DNA from: a virus | IMG/VR virus record: IMGVR_UViG_3300049740_002562 | Location: 1 to 26,175 of that record | Direction: 5' to 3' (one strand) | DNA: 26,175 nt | The notes under the pieces: model-generated | Seen by the model: only the letters and a program-made list of their open reading frames with translations | The model's database searches: none | Told to the model about the DNA's origin: nothing | Shown here: positions 1,437 to 26,175 of the stretch, one piece after another | How the letters are laid out: each line of letters begins with the position of its first letter | How positions within the stretch are numbered: position 1 is the stretch's first letter | Position numbers and translations under genes: made by a program

Positions 1437-3518
1437 CTACATAGCAACAGATGCTGGAATATTGCCGGGAGTAGTTCCTATAGCTCCAATTCTAGCATTC
1501 TCTTGCTGTTGAATTTGAAAGGTTAATTGATCAGAGTATTTTTCAAGCCTAGCTCTAAACTTTTCATCTTGTTGTAATCTAGCCTGAATGTCCTCGCCTC
1601 CTATATCTTCAGTACCTTGAAGATATTGCTGAATTACTTGCAATCTAAGCTGAGGATTTATTCCTTGCTGGGGTGCATTGACCACCTGACCACTTGAGAT
1701 TTTCGCTAGATCATTGCTAGTTTCGATTATCTCTTTAGTCGAAGCTTCTTGCTGTGGAATCAATAATTGATCCGACAAATTCGGATCAATTGCATCTATA
1801 AAAACTCTAAGGTACTGGTCGAACCTACTCACTCCGCTTCTATCAAACTGCCCCATGATCTTACCGATCATTTCAAGCTTTTGTACGACTTTCTCCTCGT
1901 CGTTGTTCATCGAATTAAAGGTAAGATTGAAATCATAAGTAGATGCCATTTCATCCATAATGATATTTTGACCACGAGAATTGGAGGTCACTCTGAACCA
2001 GACATCCGTATTGTAAGCTCGATCTAATGCCCACATCTTTGAAAGCACTTGGCTAAATCCTTGTAGAAAATTGTTTATCAAAGATTGGCGTATCAAGTTT
2101 GCCTCTACTGCATCATTTGGATCAGTAGCTCTGCCAGTTAATTTATCAGCTAACTGCCTAATTTGCATTTCCACCTGAAGGTTTTCGTTTGCATTACCTC
2201 TAGGTACTTCCATGAACCCGATGTCCCCTCTCCTCCTCACGCTGACTTGTGCGCCAGCTCCCAATTTTTCGGGTCTTGATCCAATCCGAAATTCAACTGG
2301 TGGACAAGTAGTCAAAGATTCGCGGTCTTTTCGTGCGTCCATGCAACTCTTCACAGCTTGTTGATAGGAGCGAAGCATTTCAGGGTATCCACGGCTATCC
2401 AGTAGTCTTCTTGATAGATGCTCGCGAGTAATTGCTACAAATGGATATTTTCCTGCATCTACTGACATAGTGTAGGTTTTTGCATAGCCTTCAGCTTGTT
2501 CGCTAAAACAAGTGTAGGTGCAGACAGGAATGCCATCCTCGTCAATTTCCTTGCGGTAACAGCTTATTAAACGAACCAAGCCATCATAATGATCAGGTGC
2601 ATCATGCTGTCCTGACATAACAGCCTCAGAGTAACCATCGTATTTATGATCATAGTCACCAGTTGTGTTAGTTATTACTTCATCTACGAAATCTTGGTCA
2701 AAACCTTCAGTTTTAACCTTCTCCTTTAATTGTTCAGGAGAGTAGTAATTGACTGTGTATACAGCTCTTGCTGATTGTAAATCGAGAATATTGCTATCAA
2801 TAATTAGATCACGACCCAGCTCGTAAGCTCGAATCATAGGTCGATTAGTAATGACCTTTTCCTGTGGTATTTCAGTCACTCCTTTCGACTTCAATTCACG
2901 ATACATTTTATTAATTCGTTTCTTAGAAAGATTAGGGAAGGCATTTTGGAATATCTCCAAAATGCCCCCCTTCATTTCATCGTCAGATATAGCAGAACCT
3001 ATGTCAGGAGAGAGAGCTGAAATCTCCTGAAGGGTGATGGGCTGAAGAACCCTAGTCACCTCACGACGAAAATGTACTCCTAAAAAGCAAAAACCTTGCT
3101 CTAGTAAATAGTTCGCTGCCACTCCAACTTCACGAGGAAGTTCCTCCATGGTAGACATCCTCCATCTCATAAATTGAGTAACAATGGCTGATGTAGTTAT
3201 GTCATTAGATTCAACTGGAGAAGCAATCAAATTGCCTCGATTTACTGCACTCTTGATGAGTGCAATATCACCATCAATAAGCGGAGTTACAAGGTTCGGC
3301 TCTAAGTCAGATGCTCCTTGCCAAGGGAAAGCGTCAGGGTCTTCCTTACGACCTGTTTTACTTTTCCCAGCCCATACATTTCTGCGAATGTCCCTAGCCT
3401 CTTCGGCTAGGTCTAGGTAGTAAGAAAGGTTGTGCCGACATCTATCAAAATCACTTTTAAGAAAGTCAATGTCCGGCTTAGTTTCATGTTCATAAAGCTC
3501 ATTTTCCTGTTCTGCCAT
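1437..3518 (-). CDS. phage portal protein (head-tail connector)
   Basis: The protein is 693 aa, a typical length for the large P22-like class of portals. The dodecameric portal ring sits at one capsid vertex and is the channel through which TerL pumps DNA. The N-terminal part has ARDIRRNVWAGKSKTGRKED then PFPWQGASDLEPNLVTPLI-like sequence (here DAFPWQGASDLEPNLVTPLI). That 'PWxGASD' signature before a helix-rich region is one I associate with phage portals. The C-terminus is Gln-rich and disordered-looking, as in many portals. The ATG at 3518 has only a weak purine stretch upstream. It lies a few bases downstream of a small HTH gene and 4 bp upstream of the 51 aa gene. No catalytic motif is expected in this family. 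The call rests on length, signature and context with TerL. Confidence 0.8.
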   Translation of the reverse strand: MAEQENELYEHETKPDIDFLKSDFDRCRHNLSYYLDLAEEARDIRRNVWAGKSKTGRKEDPDAFPWQGASDLEPNLVTPLIDGDIALIKSAVNRGNLIASPVESNDITTSAIVTQFMRWRMSTMEELPREVGVAANYLLEQGFCFLGVHFRREVTRVLQPITLQEISALSPDIGSAISDDEMKGGILEIFQNAFPNLSKKRINKMYRELKSKGVTEIPQEKVITNRPMIRAYELGRDLIIDSNILDLQSARAVYTVNYYSPEQLKEKVKTEGFDQDFVDEVITNTTGDYDHKYDGYSEAVMSGQHDAPDHYDGLVRLISCYRKEIDEDGIPVCTYTCFSEQAEGYAKTYTMSVDAGKYPFVAITREHLSRRLLDSRGYPEMLRSYQQAVKSCMDARKDRESLTTCPPVEFRIGSRPEKLGAGAQVSVRRRGDIGFMEVPRGNANENLQVEMQIRQLADKLTGRATDPNDAVEANLIRQSLINNFLQGFSQVLSKMWALDRAYNTDVWFRVTSNSRGQNIIMDEMASTYDFNLTFNSMNNDEEKVVQKLEMIGKIMGQFDRSGVSRFDQYLRVFIDAIDPNLSDQLLIPQQEASTKEIIETSNDLAKISSGQVVNAPQQGINPQLRLQVIQQYLQGTEDIGGEDIQARLQQDEKFRARLEKYSDQLTFQIQQQENARIGAIGTTPGNIPASVAM

Positions 3519-5953: not shown

Positions 5954-7587
5954 CAATATCCACCAGTCGCAGTCACGCCTAGTTCGTGATCTTCAAAATA
6001 CCTGTAATTGCCAATCGCGACATATCTCAAGCAATCAGGAGGGTCTTTGGTCACAGCTTTTGGCCCATGATCAACCTGATAGTTTTGACAGCAATGAATA
6101 GTATTACCGCACTTATCGCTGAATATAAGCTTGGAGTGATTGTCGAAGCCAATGGGCTTCGACGTATCGTATGCTAAAAGTGAATTAATAGCCTGGAGTC
6201 CTGTTTCAATATCCAAGCCGTCTGCTGGATTAACAAAGATGCCTTCATCAGCAAGATCGCTGATAATATTGGAAGTACCCTCTGCCTTCTGATAGCTCGC
6301 AGAACCAAGGCGAGGGTCGATGATCATATCGACATTCTCCAAGCCTTTGGTCATCTCTTTGATGATTTCGGCATAGTCTTTTATGCCATAGCCATTTGGC
6401 TGACAGGCTTCTCCTGCGACTCCGTGATTACCTTTTTCTAAGTCTGCCCAAGCTCCGTAGGATGGGTCAGGAAATTCATCGATGACATAGTGAATGTCAT
6501 TAGATGCAATGGCTACAAGTATCATGAACCAAGGTTTTGCTCCTGCTGGATCAATACTGAGAACATAGGTGCATGGATTGTCCTGCGGATTCTTAATCAC
6601 AGGAATCTCACTATGTTTCATTATCACCTTGTCGTCCAAGTTTCTGAAGACAGTTCCTGCTGGTTTTGTCGGAACTCCGTAGGCTCTCGTCAAAATTTCA
6701 TCACGGCTTGAACCTTTGAGCTGATTTTTCGTAGCTGTCCAAGAATTGTATGGATTGTCCTGAGTGTGGAAGTAAACGATCCGAGCATTCCTTATGCTCT
6801 GCTGTAATACAGGAACTTCATCGTTATCGAGAAGCACCGCTGGACGAGAATCCAAGGTTCTTGCTCCTGATAAATACTGGCTAACCACATTTGTCCAACC
6901 TGAGACAGTTGTGAAGCTACTGATAATACGAGCAGGGATTCCTTTGGAATCCGCTCTCGTTAAAACGCGAAAACGAAGAGTGGAGATTAGGTTGGCACTA
7001 TATTCCTCATCCAGCCAAATTCCCCAAGATTGTGTTCCTTCAACAGGATCACCTAAAAGCCCACATTCACCGCCCTCAATGGTTTTTACATCTTGTTGAA
7101 AGTTCCTGAATACACAGGTGCTACCATTGGGGAGAATAAAAGAACTGGAGGTAAAGCCATTCTTGGAGCTATAGCTCACATAATAGGTTCGGGATCGCCC
7201 TAGTTTCTTAAATTCCTTTGGCAGATATTTGTAAATAAGAGCCTGTTGAAAAGCTATGCTGTTCTGTGATGAAGTCGTGAAACACCAAATAACCGCACCG
7301 GGATTTTTTACCAAGGTCTGCACAACTCTTTTCGCACAGTATTCGCTCTTTCCTGATCTGTTTCCTCCAAGGATTAGCAATTCGCTGTGATCCGCGAGTT
7401 GTTCGTCTGCAAGCTTCCAATGCGGAAGTTCCGTTCCATAGCGATAAGGGTCGTCCTGCTCTCTTTGAATAGCACCTTCTCTGCTTTCCCAGTATTGAAG
7501 AAGCCTTTCCGCACCCATCGCAATTTGTTCCCTTCGAGAAGGGATTTCCAAGATTGGATGATGTGTCCAAGTTAAGCTCACACCCAT
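5953..7587 (-). CDS. terminase large subunit (TerL), DNA-packaging ATPase/nuclease
   Basis: It is the motor that pumps DNA through the portal into the prohead and cuts the concatemer. The ATPase domain has Walker A LGGNRSGKSE (residues 73-82) and Walker B SWGIWLDEEYS with the catalytic Glu near 194. The RNase H-like nuclease domain has acidic residues in VLSIDPAGAKPW (D346), MIIDPRLGSA (D424) and KDPPDCLRYV (D518). At 544 aa it is full length. Start ATG 7587 has no visible Shine-Dalgarno site. It is the first gene of the minus-strand late operon and faces a divergent intergenic region. No small terminase lies immediately upstream on the same strand, which is unusual. The 9147-9650 HTH protein is one candidate. 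Confidence 0.92.
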   Translation of the reverse strand: MGVSLTWTHHPILEIPSRREQIAMGAERLLQYWESREGAIQREQDDPYRYGTELPHWKLADEQLADHSELLILGGNRSGKSEYCAKRVVQTLVKNPGAVIWCFTTSSQNSIAFQQALIYKYLPKEFKKLGRSRTYYVSYSSKNGFTSSSFILPNGSTCVFRNFQQDVKTIEGGECGLLGDPVEGTQSWGIWLDEEYSANLISTLRFRVLTRADSKGIPARIISSFTTVSGWTNVVSQYLSGARTLDSRPAVLLDNDEVPVLQQSIRNARIVYFHTQDNPYNSWTATKNQLKGSSRDEILTRAYGVPTKPAGTVFRNLDDKVIMKHSEIPVIKNPQDNPCTYVLSIDPAGAKPWFMILVAIASNDIHYVIDEFPDPSYGAWADLEKGNHGVAGEACQPNGYGIKDYAEIIKEMTKGLENVDMIIDPRLGSASYQKAEGTSNIISDLADEGIFVNPADGLDIETGLQAINSLLAYDTSKPIGFDNHSKLIFSDKCGNTIHCCQNYQVDHGPKAVTKDPPDCLRYVAIGNYRYFEDHELGVTATGGY

Positions 7588-10718: not shown

Positions 10719-10794
<76 letters not shown>

Positions 10795-10830: not shown

Positions 10831-10959
10831 TAGTTTCCCTAAATTCCAATAAGGCAATAAGGACATAAGAATTGCTACCCTTGAATCTATTTCCTGCAAA
10901 AATAGATACAAATTCTAATGGTATTTGACGAGACTTGTCTGTAATGGTTTTTTTTAATT

Positions 10960-11529: not shown

Positions 11530-12024
11530 ATGAACTTTCTTTACATAAATTTGATTTTCATGGTTACATCGTGGGTAGGACTAATGGTGTTTTCACTAGG
11601 ATTAGTAGCCTCAATGCTTCCTTTATTACCTTTTGTAAAAAGTGAAAAACCACCAACTATAGTCATGGTTTTTGCGATTTTTCTTATGGCAGTATTTCAA
11701 ATTTATTTTTGGGGTTTATGGTCAGCATATTGCGTCGCCCTTGTTATGAAGTACACCCAAATGGAAGGCGTAACAATGAATTGGCTTTATTGGGTCTGTG
11801 GATTTTTATGGTGTACAGCACTTATAGGGTGGCTCTCTTCAAAAGAACAGCATGGACAGTCTTTTGAAAAGACAAAGGACATACAAAAAGGTACTGCTTT
11901 CTACAAACTTACTGCAATTGTTGGATACTTGATTTTTGCTTTTTCCCCTAATCTAGCTTTTTACCCATATGGGTGGTTTATGAAAATCACGGGTTTATCA
12001 AAATACATTTTTGATGCAATCTGA
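11530..12024 (+). CDS. integral membrane protein, about four TM helices (164 aa)
   Basis: Hydrophobic stretches are FMVTSWVGLMVFSLGLVASM, VMVFAIFLMAVFQIYFWGLW, WLYWVCGFLWCTALIGWL and LTAIVGYLIFAFSPNLAFY. The hydrophilic loops are short, so no enzymatic domain is evident. ATG 11530 follows the 186 aa gene by nine bases and the end overlaps the next gene. No family recognised; the tight operon suggests a membrane complex with its two neighbours. Confidence 0.65.
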   Translation: MNFLYINLIFMVTSWVGLMVFSLGLVASMLPLLPFVKSEKPPTIVMVFAIFLMAVFQIYFWGLWSAYCVALVMKYTQMEGVTMNWLYWVCGFLWCTALIGWLSSKEQHGQSFEKTKDIQKGTAFYKLTAIVGYLIFAFSPNLAFYPYGWFMKITGLSKYIFDAI

Positions 12025-12775: not shown

Positions 12776-14044
12776 TTAAGCAGACTTCTCAAAGATAGTC
12801 TCTTCTGGTGGGAGAATCGAGTAAAACTTCTCAGTCATCTCGTCGTCCAAACCGCGAACTGCAAGATAGTGACGATGAATAATCTGAGGAGAATTGCCAG
12901 CCCATATAGCAGTCTTATCTACATTCTGATCGAGCTTCTGAACCATGAAGGTGATACCGGTATGACGCATAACATTCTTAGGGAAGCTTGGACGGCTTTT
13001 GTCAGAAGCGTTTTTGCACTCCTCATCATATCCAAAAAAGCAAACAGAACCCATACGAGCTGAATGAACGCGGTATCCAGCACAAGCCTTCAATACATCC
13101 CAATATTTGACATGATTGCTATGCCTTACCCTACCCTCTGACTTTGCATAACGAGTAAGCCATACCCTAGCATTTTCAGGAATAATAACTGGTCGCTCGC
13201 GGTAGTTTTTACCATCTACCCGAATCACTCCTTTAGAAAGATTAACATCTTTCCAATCGAGTCTCATGATTTCCTCATTCCTCATTCCGCAAAAAATAGA
13301 GAAGACAAGATAAGGAACCATTGCTCCGTCTTTAATATTAAGTGCGATCTCGAAAAGCTTCTCGACCTGTTCAGGCTCAAGAATCTCTACCCTCTTTCTC
13401 TCGACTCTTCGCTTTTGGATCCTGGAGACTGGATTGTCCTCTACCCACTCTTGGTTGTAGCAGTAGTTAAAGAATACATGAAGGTGGAGATAGCATAAGT
13501 TGAAGCTAGTCGCACTTAGTCCCTCGGTAAATTTCTCCATCCACCTTTCAATCTCAACTTTCTTAAAAGAGCTTACAACTTTCCGAGGAAATGCTTTCGC
13601 CAAATTCAAAAGCACTCGCTTCACGGCTTTCTTATGTCGCTCTGAGTTTTCCTGAAACTTCAAGGTTTCAGTAAAACTTTTTCCAGCTTCCTCAATCTTA
13701 ACCATTGGTCTCTCCGTGCTTATATTTGCGACATAAGAAACAGCCATCTCGTAAATCGAAATATCACGACCATGAGCTTGCAAATGTTTGATGGCAGCAA
13801 TGGCATCAGCTTCCTCTTTTGCGGTGAGGTGACTGACTCGATTCATACCCTGCAAAATGTAAAGCTCACCCTTGTCCTGCATGGCTTGTAAATGTGCCTC
13901 GGCTTCGGCTCTTGTGGTGAAACGATTACGGACTCTTATGTGCCGATTATTTTTATCGCGATGAGGTAACATTCCCTCGACCTTATAGTAGTCTCCATCG
14001 ACTTTTATTTTTATGCTATTTTTACTCCAACGATTATTGATCAT
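12776..14044 (-). CDS. tyrosine-recombinase phage integrase
   Basis: It catalyses site-specific integration and excision between attP and attB. An N-terminal arm-binding region and a SAM-like core-binding domain (about residues 110-220) precede the catalytic domain. Catalytic residues: Arg in FCGMRNEEIMRLDW (R255), Lys in RVDGKNYRERPV (K279), Arg in NVMRHTGITF (R360) and nucleophile Tyr in IIHRHYLAV (Y393). The two accessory His positions (HxxR and GH) are Asn here (NVMR and AGN), a variation I recall in PVC-bacterial integrases. I choose ATG 14044 (422 aa) because the 16 upstream residues (HNCSIFIIYKRAN) do not fit the family; no strong ribosome site is seen. Its promoter lies in the 14045-14365 region. 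Confidence 0.88.
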   Translation of the reverse strand: MINNRWSKNSIKIKVDGDYYKVEGMLPHRDKNNRHIRVRNRFTTRAEAEAHLQAMQDKGELYILQGMNRVSHLTAKEEADAIAAIKHLQAHGRDISIYEMAVSYVANISTERPMVKIEEAGKSFTETLKFQENSERHKKAVKRVLLNLAKAFPRKVVSSFKKVEIERWMEKFTEGLSATSFNLCYLHLHVFFNYCYNQEWVEDNPVSRIQKRRVERKRVEILEPEQVEKLFEIALNIKDGAMVPYLVFSIFCGMRNEEIMRLDWKDVNLSKGVIRVDGKNYRERPVIIPENARVWLTRYAKSEGRVRHSNHVKYWDVLKACAGYRVHSARMGSVCFFGYDEECKNASDKSRPSFPKNVMRHTGITFMVQKLDQNVDKTAIWAGNSPQIIHRHYLAVRGLDDEMTEKFYSILPPEETIFEKSA

Positions 14045-14365
14045 GATATTTGCGCGTTTATAGATTATGAAAATAGAGCAGTTGTGTACCACCCTTTCGT
14101 TACCATATTATTGTGACGCCTCTGAATCGCGGGCCAAGTAGTTTTTGCAAATATCTGTAAAAAAGTGACTTACGGAAATAGAGCAGAGAAATTTGTAACC
14201 TCATCTCAAACACTTAATAAACAAGCACTTGCGACATAAATACTAGTATTGGCAGAAAAACGCGGAGACATGAAGGGACAAGAAAACCCCGAATGTGGCA
14301 ACGATGTGGTAACGGATTTAAGGATGGGGATTTGCCAACCAAATGCCATAAATCACATAAATTGT
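14045..14365. promoter_or_regulatory. noncoding region upstream of integrase, possible attP or operators
   Basis: These 321 bp contain no convincing gene. They hold a 13-bp direct repeat, gaaaatagagcag (14069-14081) and ggaaatagagcag (14174-14186), 105 bp apart. The first lies 25 bp before the integrase start. Such short repeats could be integrase arm sites or repressor operators. The right end carries an inverted repeat that crosses the stop of the next gene. I cannot place a core site. Confidence 0.4.
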
Positions 14366-22581: not shown

Positions 22582-22778
22582 GTGATATTGAACCATTACT
22601 TACGAGAAAGGAAGTGGCTAAGCTACTTCAGGTATCGACCAAAACCATTTTAAGACTGGAAAGGCAGGGCAAGATTGCACGCGTACAGATTGGCGACAAT
22701 GGAGTCAGGTTTAAGCCATCAACAATCCGTGCGTTCATCGATGGAAGGGAAATATTTAGTAACAATATTGAAAGATAA
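22578..22778 (+). CDS. excisionase-like / MerR-type HTH protein (66 aa)
   Basis: A single winged helix of the HTH_17 type: LLTRKEVAKLLQVSTKTILR, LERQGKIARVQIGDNGVRFK, STIRAFID. Such proteins act as recombination directionality factors (Xis) or small regulators. ATG 22578 overlaps the helicase TGA (ATGA) and its TAA overlaps the sigma gene ATG (TAATG). Given the integrase in the window, Xis is a reasonable guess, though it lies 8.5 kb away. Confidence 0.75.
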   Translation: MSDIEPLLTRKEVAKLLQVSTKTILRLERQGKIARVQIGDNGVRFKPSTIRAFIDGREIFSNNIER

Positions 22779-23677
22779 TGGATAAGATAGATGAAAAACA
22801 ACAAGTCGGTCTCATTCGACAATATAAACGCCTGGAATCTGAGATAGCTCAGACCAAAGACGAGAAAAAGGCTCGTATGCTCGAAAGAGAAGCTGAGGAT
22901 ATCAAGAGTCGCGTTATTGAAGCCAACTTAGATTTGATCTACAAGATGGCGAAGAGTCATGCAGAGGATGATACCCAATATGCTGAATCTTTAAGTGATG
23001 CTCAGTATCGTAGCATTCAATGCTTTTACTCCTACGACCCGGATAAAACAGATATGAATTTCCGATTTTATTTAGCAATGGAGTTAAAGCGGTATTTGCA
23101 AAAAAAGAAAGTAAACCTTGGGATTAACACCCCAGTTTCATTTCATGAAGTCTGCAATAAAGTAAACATTGTCTACAACCAGCTATGCCGAGAGAGAAAA
23201 AGGTATGTTACAAAAAATGAGGTTGCTGAAGCCTTGAAAATTGATGTCTCAAAGGTTCAGAGTGTGCTATTAAGTAAAAACATTCAGCTAAACTTAGAAG
23301 ATAAGGTAAACTCTGATGGTTTTGATGGCGAGAGCGACTGGCATGGAATCCTTACAGATGAAAGCTCTGATACATTTGATAATGTGAATGCTCACGAACT
23401 TGCAAAAATTATGCCTATATTGTGTGAAAACCTGAAAGATGCTCAACGAATTGCAATGAGTATGTCGTTCTACAGCCCTTATCTTTGTCGTAACAATCTA
23501 GATAGAATCACTAAAGAGCATAGTGAAGTAGCCAAACGTGTTAAAGTAGTTGAAAAAGAACTTCTCTCTGAAGGCATAAATCCGGATGAGATCAAGACAT
23601 TTGAAAGCTTCTTTGATTCATGCCGTAATTCGGCTGACAATCCTATGCCTCAAATCCTGCTTGACCAAGGATTCTAA
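22778..23677 (+). CDS. phage-encoded sigma-70-like factor (299 aa)
   Basis: Region 2 spans about residues 43-110: VIEANLDLIYKMAKSHAED, then SDAQYRSIQCFYSYDPDK and FRFYLAMELKRYLQKK, the core-binding and -10 recognition helices. Region 3 follows (TPVSFHEVCNKVNIVYNQL, YVTKNEVAEALKIDVSKVQS). A degenerate region 4 may lie in NLDRITKEHSEVAKRVKVVE (about 245-270). Acidic residues at region 2.2 and the aromatic cluster support a real sigma. It is next to last in the early operon, so it could redirect host RNA polymerase to phage late promoters. The C-terminus (LLDQGF) overlaps the duplicated element at 23663-23713. Confidence 0.75.
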   Translation: MDKIDEKQQVGLIRQYKRLESEIAQTKDEKKARMLEREAEDIKSRVIEANLDLIYKMAKSHAEDDTQYAESLSDAQYRSIQCFYSYDPDKTDMNFRFYLAMELKRYLQKKKVNLGINTPVSFHEVCNKVNIVYNQLCRERKRYVTKNEVAEALKIDVSKVQSVLLSKNIQLNLEDKVNSDGFDGESDWHGILTDESSDTFDNVNAHELAKIMPILCENLKDAQRIAMSMSFYSPYLCRNNLDRITKEHSEVAKRVKVVEKELLSEGINPDEIKTFESFFDSCRNSADNPMPQILLDQGF

Positions 23678-23713
23678 CGCACAAACCGATCAAGCTGTTC
23701 TGTGGTCGCCATT
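23663..23713. repeat. duplicated 51-nt element, copy 1, with minus-strand mini-ORF
   Basis: It aligns to 24166-24216 with 44 of 51 identical bases. All seven differences fall at every third base. It spans the sigma gene stop. On the minus strand it encodes MATTEQLDRFVR plus TAG (23712-23674), the same peptide as in copy 2. Confidence 0.75.
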
Positions 23714-23757
23714 ACTTAAAAAATCCCTTGGCATCTGTGATTTGGATGGGTTATTAG

Positions 23758-24147
23758 ATGGGGATGAGATATAAAGTTTATTGGAAAAGTCAGTCACAAA
23801 AAGATGCAGTCATTTTTGAGTGTGGGAATGAAGAACAAGCAAAAGCTATGTTCTTGCAAGATAATGAAGAAAGGGAAGAGCCTTTAATTATCGAATATGA
23901 CGATAAGGTTATCGACAAAGAATACATTGAACCAGTCAAAACAGAGCAATCGTCACCAAGTCATTCTGATGGGCATAAAGGAAAATCCGCATCTACTTCT
24001 AACGAATCAAAACAACAAGTCTCTGGAAGTATAGAGGACAAGCTAGACAGGCTTTACGATGTTATGAATCACATTCGCTGGATTGGGTTAGGCATTGGTG
24101 GTATGTTTGCAATCACTTTCATCCTGCCTCAATGCACGGGCGGTTAA
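23758..24147 (+). CDS. C-terminally membrane-anchored small protein (129 aa)
   Basis: An N-terminal compact beta/alpha part (MRYKVYWKSQSQKDAVIFEC; EEQAKAMFLQDNEEREEP) is followed by a polar Ser/Lys/Gln linker, a short coiled helix (SIEDKLDRLYDVMNHI) and a C-terminal TM segment (WIGLGIGGMFAITFILPQC). I do not recognise the family. ATG 23758 has no ideal ribosome site; ATG 23764 is an alternative. The gene is flanked on both sides by the 51-nt duplicated element, so it may have been inserted as a unit after the sigma gene. Confidence 0.6.
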   Translation: MGMRYKVYWKSQSQKDAVIFECGNEEQAKAMFLQDNEEREEPLIIEYDDKVIDKEYIEPVKTEQSSPSHSDGHKGKSASTSNESKQQVSGSIEDKLDRLYDVMNHIRWIGLGIGGMFAITFILPQCTGG

Positions 24148-24165
24148 GGGGTTTGGGTAACGACA

Positions 24166-24216
24166 GATCAGGGCTTTTAACGAACAAACCGATCAAGCTG
24201 TTCTGTGGTTGCCATC
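24166..24216. repeat. duplicated 51-nt element, copy 2, with minus-strand mini-ORF
   Basis: Second copy of the element, 503 bp after copy 1. The minus strand again reads MATTEQLDRFVR then TAA (24215-24177). Here the minus frame is open further upstream and could start at ATG 24227 (MTRT...) or 24254. It lies in the noncoding gap between convergent genes. Confidence 0.75.
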
Positions 24217-24255
24217 GTTCTAGTCATAGCTGGTCTCGTAAATCGACTAGATGGC
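24211..24255. terminator. bulged hairpin between convergent genes
   Basis: gccat (24211-24215) and ctagtc (24220-24225) pair with gactag (24245-24250) and atggc (24251-24255), an 11-bp stem with one 4-nt bulge and a 19-nt loop. Position between convergent operons suggests a bidirectional terminator, but there is no clear T tract. Confidence 0.4.
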
Positions 24256-24278
24256 ATCTCTATCGGGTAAGAACTGAT

Positions 24279-24545
24279 TTATTTCGTTTGGGTTTTGTCA
24301 TTGGCTTTCAATTTAGAATGTCGAAACTTTTCATATTCTAAGTCTTTTTTCCGACCTTCCTTTACCTGTTTAAGGGCTTCAGCAGAAGTAAGCCTTGGCT
24401 GTTTAGCAATTTTAGACATATCCTTTAACTCATTCAGCTTCAGATCAAACTCCTTCATCAAGCGTTCCATCGCCTTGTCTCCTACTTCCTGAATTAGCTC
24501 TAAGTTTGGTGATGTATCTTTTGGTGTATCCTGAGATTGTTTCAT
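24279..24545 (-). CDS. small coiled-coil phage protein (88 aa)
   Basis: A charged, helical protein (QEVGDKAMERLMKEFDLKLN; TSAEALKQVKEGRKKDLEYE) with heptad-like spacing and a polar N-terminus. ATG 24545 has AGGAG nine bases upstream, so the start is well supported although it lies 101 bp inside the preceding large gene in another frame. No family recognised. As the last gene of a virion-side transcript it may be a minor structural or scaffold-like protein. Confidence 0.65.
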   Translation of the reverse strand: MKQSQDTPKDTSPNLELIQEVGDKAMERLMKEFDLKLNELKDMSKIAKQPRLTSAEALKQVKEGRKKDLEYEKFRHSKLKANDKTQTK

Positions 24546-26175
24546 TTGTTGATGCTCCTGAGTATCCTAATTTCTTTGCTGTATCTATCATATAAAACCA
24601 ACGGATCGCTTGCAACGCGCTAGTTGGCATTTTGTCACCTGTCTTCTTTTCAAACTCCTCCTGAAAGATTTCGGTGAAACGTGTAAATAATGCGTGTTCA
24701 TCGACATTAGCTGGAAGACCTGTATTTTTCTTAAACATACCCTTGAAGTAGCTCCTGATAAACCTAGCCTCCCAAACATCAATGGTATTGTAATTGTGAT
24801 TACCTACCGCATTTAAAGTGTAAGCTCCAACTTTTGGCCCGAAGATAAACATTCTTGGAATAAGCTCATCCTGCCCGGTAGCTTGTTTAACGATTCTCCT
24901 AATGTCTCCCGGCTTAGCAACATTGCCAGCATAGCCCATTTGCTTGTTAAACTGATGAAGCTTTTTTATTGGAACACCTTCCTCAAGGAAGTCGATTGCA
25001 TCTCTAACGCTACCAAGCTCTTTGCGAAGGCTGTCTACGATAAGAAGTGACCGGGCTTTAGTTGGAGCGGTTGTTCCTGAAATCTTAAATGGAGATGAAG
25101 CGATGACAGGATTACCCTTCTCACTCGTTCCCATTTTGATGTCATCAAGATTACCCTTCTCCTTGTAGAGATTGAAGATATTAACTCCATCTCCAACATT
25201 TGATGGAAGCTTAGTGCCTGGAGATGTTAGTCCAAGCATTGTTCGATAGAAGAGGAAATCATCATCGCTTACATTGCCATAGCCTTGATCTAGCTCATTA
25301 CGAGTAGCTTCCATGTCCTTGTTGTAATAATCAGCAAACTGCGGATTATCTCGCAGGAATGGAGTCACATCCTCGATTGCTCTTCTAGTAGCCTCGCGGA
25401 TATTGCGAACACTTGGTTTGAGCTGTCCTCCAGTTTTGCGAAGAAGCTTTGGTAGCATAGCTCCAAAGAATACATCTTCCGCGTTCTCCGCTACCCTGCC
25501 CTTTTCTGCCACAATAGATTTAGCATCTTCCAAGGCTGGCATGAACATCGGTTCATCACTCTGCCTGAACGGATTGTAGTTATTACGGATATTGTCGTAA
25601 TTGAAAGTGAAAGCTTTTCTGCGACCTCTTCCAACACCAGCCAAAGCCTCTACATCGTAGGAGCGAAATGATTTCTTAAGCTTTCCGCTTTCCAGTAGTT
25701 CTTTGATTCCTTCACTACGAATATTCTCTGCTGACTCTTTTAGCCCAAATACAGCTGTCATGAGGGTATTCTCAGCACCACCATCAGGATTGATTCTGCC
25801 TTCAGGGTCAGCAAGGGCTTTCTGCCCTTGCTGTGCTAGTTGACGCTCAAAGTCCTTAATGTCTTTAATATAACCATTTTCGACTAGCACTTGGATATTA
25901 TGCCTTACTACTGCTTGATCGTAACCTAGTACTTTAAGAGAATTACCGGATACTTCCCATGCATAGATAGCAACATCTCTAATTTTAAATGGATTCTGAT
26001 ATTTACCTTTTGTTCCTGATCTGTAGCCAAAAATAATGCCAATCCCCTGATCAATTGCTTGTTGAAGAGCATCAATGATAGTGGCGACATTCTGAAATGG
26101 ATCGTTACGCGTGAAAATTGTACGAAGATCAGAAGTTAATTGTTTGCCGATTAACTTTCCTCTTCTAACTGACCA
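24445..26175 (-). CDS. C-terminal part of a very large phage protein (polyvalent type), 5' end outside window
   Basis: The frame is open without a stop from 24445 to the last base of the window (576 codons), so the protein begins to the right; the GTG at 25890 is not a real start. The sequence is soluble and helical. Near the C-terminus IFGPKVGAYTLNAVGNHNYN, TIDVWEARFIRSYFKG and SALQAIRWFYMIDTAKKLGY match a segment I recall at the end of giant phage 'large polyvalent' proteins (GPKxGxFxxNLxG...TxDxWxAR...QAxLWxxEKxLYxxLG). Such proteins are carried in or ejected from virions and combine many enzymatic domains. No catalytic motif can be named in the visible part. It shares its last 101 bp with the 88 aa gene. 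Confidence 0.65.
   Translation of the reverse strand, partial: WSVRRGKLIGKQLTSDLRTIFTRNDPFQNVATIIDALQQAIDQGIGIIFGYRSGTKGKYQNPFKIRDVAIYAWEVSGNSLKVLGYDQAVVRHNIQVLVENGYIKDIKDFERQLAQQGQKALADPEGRINPDGGAENTLMTAVFGLKESAENIRSEGIKELLESGKLKKSFRSYDVEALAGVGRGRRKAFTFNYDNIRNNYNPFRQSDEPMFMPALEDAKSIVAEKGRVAENAEDVFFGAMLPKLLRKTGGQLKPSVRNIREATRRAIEDVTPFLRDNPQFADYYNKDMEATRNELDQGYGNVSDDDFLFYRTMLGLTSPGTKLPSNVGDGVNIFNLYKEKGNLDDIKMGTSEKGNPVIASSPFKISGTTAPTKARSLLIVDSLRKELGSVRDAIDFLEEGVPIKKLHQFNKQMGYAGNVAKPGDIRRIVKQATGQDELIPRMFIFGPKVGAYTLNAVGNHNYNTIDVWEARFIRSYFKGMFKKNTGLPANVDEHALFTRFTEIFQEEFEKKTGDKMPTSALQAIRWFYMIDTAKKLGYSGASTNETISGYTKRYITKLRANSGSRRQGDGTLDEGV

Follow-up and report, generated by a model that had tools for sequence, protein, structure and literature searches.

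A duplicated convergent gene junction around a cargo gene in a phage genome: probable scars of passenger-gene insertion

The window, that is the whole stretch of 26,175 nt analysed here (IMG/VR virus record IMGVR_UViG_3300049740_002562), carries two copies of a 51-nt repeat which, to judge from the sequence, is the convergent junction formed by the ends of two real phage genes and not a tiny gene. The history that we favour, with a probability of about three in four, is that this junction received a cargo gene (a "moron") along with a second copy of itself, through general recombination between related phages. The features of the locus are collected in Table 1.

Table 1. Features of the repeat-flanked junction in the window.
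Feature	Coordinates	Strand	Description
Sigma-factor-like gene	22778..23677	+	299 aa, ends with DQGF and stop; Pfam Sigma70_r3, E=9.9e-6, above cut-off
Repeat copy B	23663..23713	+	3' end of the sigma-like gene (ORF 22778-23677): final four codons, DQGF, and stop
Repeat copy B	23663..23713	-	spare giant-gene end (final 12 codons and TAG); equals the C-terminus of the L003 and L023 giant proteins
Cargo gene	23758..24147	+	129 aa; co-oriented with the sigma-like gene; absent from the empty-site relatives L023 and L019
Repeat copy A	24166..24216	-	end of the giant gene's tail ORF, stop TAA
Repeat copy A	24166..24216	+	spare DQGF and stop of the sigma-like gene; four codons all synonymously different from copy B
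Orphaned giant-gene tail	24177..24257	-	MPSSRFTRPAMTRTMATTEQLDRFVR and stop; homologous to the ends of the L003 and L023 giant proteins
Small gene	24279..24545	-	88 aa; overlaps the giant gene 3' end in another frame; conserved in L023 and L019
Giant multidomain gene, 3' part	24445..26175	-	continues off the record; ends at TGA

The original prediction rightly described two copies of the element and a single gene bracketed by them. The copies are identical at 44 of 51 positions, and their seven differences (offsets 2, 5, 8, 11, 17, 44 and 50) are all congruent modulo 3; when copy A is aligned with copy B the similarity breaks off abruptly at either end, and the likeness of copy A to the sigma-like gene stops at a GAT codon. 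By chance, seven differences out of seven would fall in one unspecified register with a probability of 3 x (1/3)^7 = 0.0014, and the 26-nt core of the repeat has 0 expected matches at up to three mismatches in shuffled windows. The 26-kb record contains two copies only. An Rfam scan of positions 23300-24700 gave no match, and comparison of the locus with phage and plasmid collections at the DNA level revealed no similarity.

On the plus strand, the predicted DQGF-stop reading was confirmed and represents, in copy B, the true end of the sigma-like gene, whose product has sigma-70 region 3 above the Pfam cut-off, with regions 2 and 4 not detected; a relative matches the sigma factor family phrog_351. 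Used alone as a query against viral contigs, the window gene gave no matches; alignment placed homologues at the equivalent position in L003, L023 and L019. On the minus strand, MATTEQLDRFVR followed by a stop closes a 1052-aa protein of L003, a viral contig that has the repeat core as well, and a 2148-aa protein of L023, a contig of an uncultured Verrucomicrobia genome assembly (isolate AG-908-P09). The L003 protein ends with MPSSRFMRPAMTRTMATTEQLDRFVR, and its 26-aa tail was found in the window apart from the giant gene. The predicted minus-strand peptide and its stop are present, although at copy A they close a longer ORF and do not constitute a 12-codon gene. A signature of the form RF-x-x-P-A...RF(V)R before the stop also closes the homologous giant proteins of L019, L005, L034, L039 and L040, being found in most relatives with a readable gene end; by this comparison, the tail is a conserved C-terminal signature of the giant protein family. 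Sampling of Verrucomicrobia genomes more widely (phylum and order draws) yielded no copy of the giant gene other than that in G003.

The window giant gene stops at the TGA at 24445 where that of L023 reads on (GVRSEAERAKG in L023, GV-stop-SEAE-stop-VKG in the window), so that the tail is no longer fused to the giant gene. The small gene that overlaps this 3' end has counterparts in L023, from position 13722, and in L019; when the window is compared with L023, 5 of 5 differences within 1663-1744 (reverse coordinates) are third positions of the 88-aa frame, while upstream of this segment 35 of 38 fall on giant-gene third positions, a pattern which indicates that the small gene frame is under selection in the overlap.

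The restriction of the differences to third positions follows from the geometry of the junction. The stops of the two convergent genes overlap by 4 nt, which puts the third positions of both on the same coordinates modulo 3, and all seven differences thus share one register; ordinary coding selection is, on this reading, what accounts for the pattern. The original prediction was then correct in invoking protein-level selection, but the target is, or was, the 3' ends of two full-length convergent genes. Between the window copies there are four synonymous differences in DQGF and three in the giant-gene tail (two codons and the stop), the two counts overlapping at one base that is common to the last DQGF codon and the minus-strand stop, while another of the seven sites is the last base of the repeat, just outside the ATG. 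Each copy has the appearance of a junction in which both gene ends were functional while it evolved. Since the spare halves differ only synonymously, they would have been functional gene ends until recently, and their simplest source may be insertion from a related phage.

Comparison with close relatives revealed both empty and filled sites. In L023 and L019, the giant and sigma-like genes lie tail to tail, with a 4-nt stop overlap (TTAG) and no cargo. Either side of the junction, identity between L003 and L023 is 93-96%, the swapped C-terminal domain of L003 left out, and L003 corresponds to L023 plus 442 nt inserted precisely at the junction; the extra sequence holds a cargo ORF of 124 codons and another junction copy, 36 nt long. 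The contigs of L020, L022 and L046 end before they reach the junction. Copy A of L003 matches L023 exactly over 36 nt, whereas copy B, which adjoins the sigma-like gene, carries four codon changes (ATG>GGG, GAA>GAC, CGG>GGG and CGT>TGT), all non-synonymous. At both filled sites, in the window and in L003, the stop is TAA in copy A and TAG in copy B; TAG is found also in the empty L023. The cargo gene of the window differs from that at the equivalent place in L003; its product shows an apparent hydrophobic segment close to the C-terminus, as read from the sequence, has no Pfam family and gave only weak matches to two PHROGs of unknown function. No match was found among phage proteins, and no donor phage for this cargo. 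The giant proteins of the window and L003 are 89% identical as far as PMFMP, after which the C-terminal domain is swapped and the tail is shared again; as the swapped domain of L003 adjoins the tail, a single event may have brought both the cargo and the new domain.

In the favoured history, a sigma-like gene on the plus strand and a giant polyvalent-type gene on the minus strand would ancestrally have had stops overlapping by 4 nt, and a cargo gene would have entered this junction together with a second copy of it; both flanking genes would keep intact ends, and each copy would bear one spare gene end as a scar. The insertion would have occurred by recombination with a related phage in which the gene ends had drifted synonymously, presumably of the general kind, homologous or illegitimate, at a gene end that is conserved; afterwards, the repeat would permit swapping or precise deletion of the cargo. 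Four observations speak against this history: the scars are of similar length, which is not obviously expected from random joining and might be given by a site-specific system; no donor phage for the window cargo was found; the tail of window copy A is itself orphaned, yet still clean; and in L003 a swapped domain adjoins the tail.

Tail copies recur in other relatives. L005, a more distant phage, contains four, with cargo genes between them: the giant gene end, MELPERFR before the stop, is found three more times, the last copy falling within a tyrosine recombinase gene, at its 3' end. Differences in the MELPERFR codons are synonymous except in the last codon of copy 4, and the copy nearest to the giant gene is the most similar to its end; based on 24-28 nt, these features are suggestive of an array built by serial insertion. 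In L037, a new C-terminus and a small gene stand in place of the old end, leaving an orphan 33-nt tail; homology with L040 begins again 33 nt short of where the old stop ends. Within L037 14024-14388, the alternative C-terminus is L045-like at the DNA level, and the sequence past the orphan tail is L040-like, which suggests that two lineages recombined within the tail. Overall, tail scars of similar length, about 28-39 nt, occur in three lineages.

A gene-end scar around cargo is a known kind of event, of which L005 has a serial-array variant. In the mycobacteriophage Island3, gene 67 also carries the last ~50-60 bp of gene 68, of which Brujita has one copy only, and general recombination was proposed (PMC3029335); with this close precedent, general recombination would be the simplest agent here too. 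As at the present locus, one of two close phages has an extra gene, and the 3' gene-end sequence lies on both sides of the insert, Brujita having one recombinant copy; unlike here, no convergent arrangement with overlapping stops is described for the flanking genes of Island3, and neither a serial array nor synonymous-only divergence is reported (PMC3029335). The locus also shares with phage morons (PMC3029335) a gene that intervenes where close relatives have its two neighbours side by side (L003 versus L023 and L019) and a short homologous sequence at both borders, here the 36-51 nt repeats. Unlike in moron boundaries, this border is the coding end of two genes and not an intergenic linker. 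As to a promoter and terminator of its own, a scan of the cargo locus detected no terminator and only promoter-like matches at chance level on the other strand, with the proviso that the promoters of the host may differ.

Among the alternatives, the one that survives best, though unlikely, is a dedicated site-specific system in which the attachment site recognised by a recombinase is the giant gene's final 9-12 codons, and small cargo circles with a replacement 3' end are inserted to give integron-like arrays. The likeness of scar length in three lineages would fit such a system, as would the precision of the L003 insertion relative to L023, the common direction of all identified cargo genes relative to the giant gene, and the termination of the multi-cargo L005 array inside a tyrosine recombinase gene; tyrosine recombinases are encoded in the window, L003 and L005 records. 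The coincidence in length is, however, weak, because events within one lineage are not independent, and the att-like tRNA sequences of relatives lie elsewhere. The recombinase of the window (12776-14092) is a phage integrase matching phrog_1, lies ~9.6 kb from the repeats and has no repeat copy nearby, and its own attP was not located; the L005 integrase has on its other side a tRNA-Leu 5' fragment (about 10886-10927, read by eye), a likely attachment site (attP), and the L027 integrase adjoins an intact tRNA-Gly (11883-11956), likely an attachment site as well. The integrase attachment site was thus rejected as the main explanation, and a phage integrase is an unlikely agent. Integron cassette arrays and attC clusters in phages (PMC9892861) resemble L005 in their small cargo, in the repeats between the genes and in the consistent orientation; unlike these, the repeats here are protein-coding gene ends, and the integrases adjoin tRNA-like sites instead of an IntI-type integrase standing beside the array. 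The strong imperfect hairpin typical of attC was not found in the repeats of the window and L003 (z-scores 0.1 to 0.8), which accordingly do not fold as attC sites; L005 copy 1 is the only repeat that folds strongly. Somewhat less probable still is the more specific proposal of a dedicated, polarised capture site at the last 9-12 codons of the giant gene, whose product is probably ejected; there a recombinase would add cargo serially, leaving a spare end each time, and, if true, the array would be an ordered record of past acquisitions.

Transposon target-site duplication, or plain tandem duplication, followed by drift would leave a small insert between direct repeats, as is seen here, and would agree with the clean insertion in L003 relative to L023; it is improbable, because a neutral copy would not gain seven of seven third-position changes, four of them in four consecutive codons, each site has its own cargo, the inserts gave no match to a transposase family and L005 would require at least three successive duplications at one spot. 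The weakest alternative, and hardly a credible one, is a functional peptide present in duplicate, MATTEQLDRFVR or RTNRSSCSVVAI, encoded by a tiny ORF or a read-through extension: the differences are indeed confined to third positions in the window, and nearly so among the L005 copies, but the same peptide ends proteins of more than 1000 aa in relatives, an in-frame stop and one codon stand just before it in window copy B, the plus-strand "read-through" reading is no more than the opposite strand of the tail, read in the third-position phase that the two genes share, and in L003 copy B the peptide has lost its ATG with the other three changes. Selection on a 12-codon ORF or on a read-through product, and the conservation of such an ORF, as originally proposed, hence found no support; differences spread over all codon positions, which the original prediction had named as evidence against itself, are present in the L003 spare copy, whose free decay refutes selection on the mini-ORF.

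The giant proteins recall the polyvalent proteins of phages, which are likewise giant and multidomain, with swappable domains such as RadC/JAB, as given in the available part of their description (PMC5512222); in the same part, unlike here, a conserved tail that outlives domain swaps and leaves orphan copies was not found described. RadC/JAB was identified in L003 and DUF7178 in L005, with no Pfam domain in L023 or L040, and a domain swap is visible in the alignment of the window with L003. A (L/M/Q)F(M/L)P motif recurs at apparent domain borders (PMFMP, KLFMPA, QFLP and QFMPD, in L022 6556-13143, L023, L019 and window 24445-26175), and these motifs are possibly processing sites or domain linkers. 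In L023, the gene directly upstream of the giant gene (6351-7559) matches phrog_2534, "released from the phage upon host infection", which suggests possible ejection of the giant protein along with the DNA. Elsewhere in the window, a tRNA-Thr gene (10719-10794, plus strand) is located about 2 kb from the integrase gene, and a plus-strand gene at 105-1067 consists of about a dozen 69-72-nt repeats, resembling MORN units.

Where convergent genes overlap in this way, their third positions share one phase, and spare gene ends can then mimic selected small ORFs, a trap of general relevance. Read as gene-end scars, a puzzling "mini-ORF" becomes the record of a passenger-gene insertion that spared neighbours with overlapping stops, and the conserved tail of a giant, probably virion-associated protein becomes a fixed border for the exchange of domains and cargo; the repeat would thus reveal passenger-gene gain and swap in Verrucomicrobia-linked phages.
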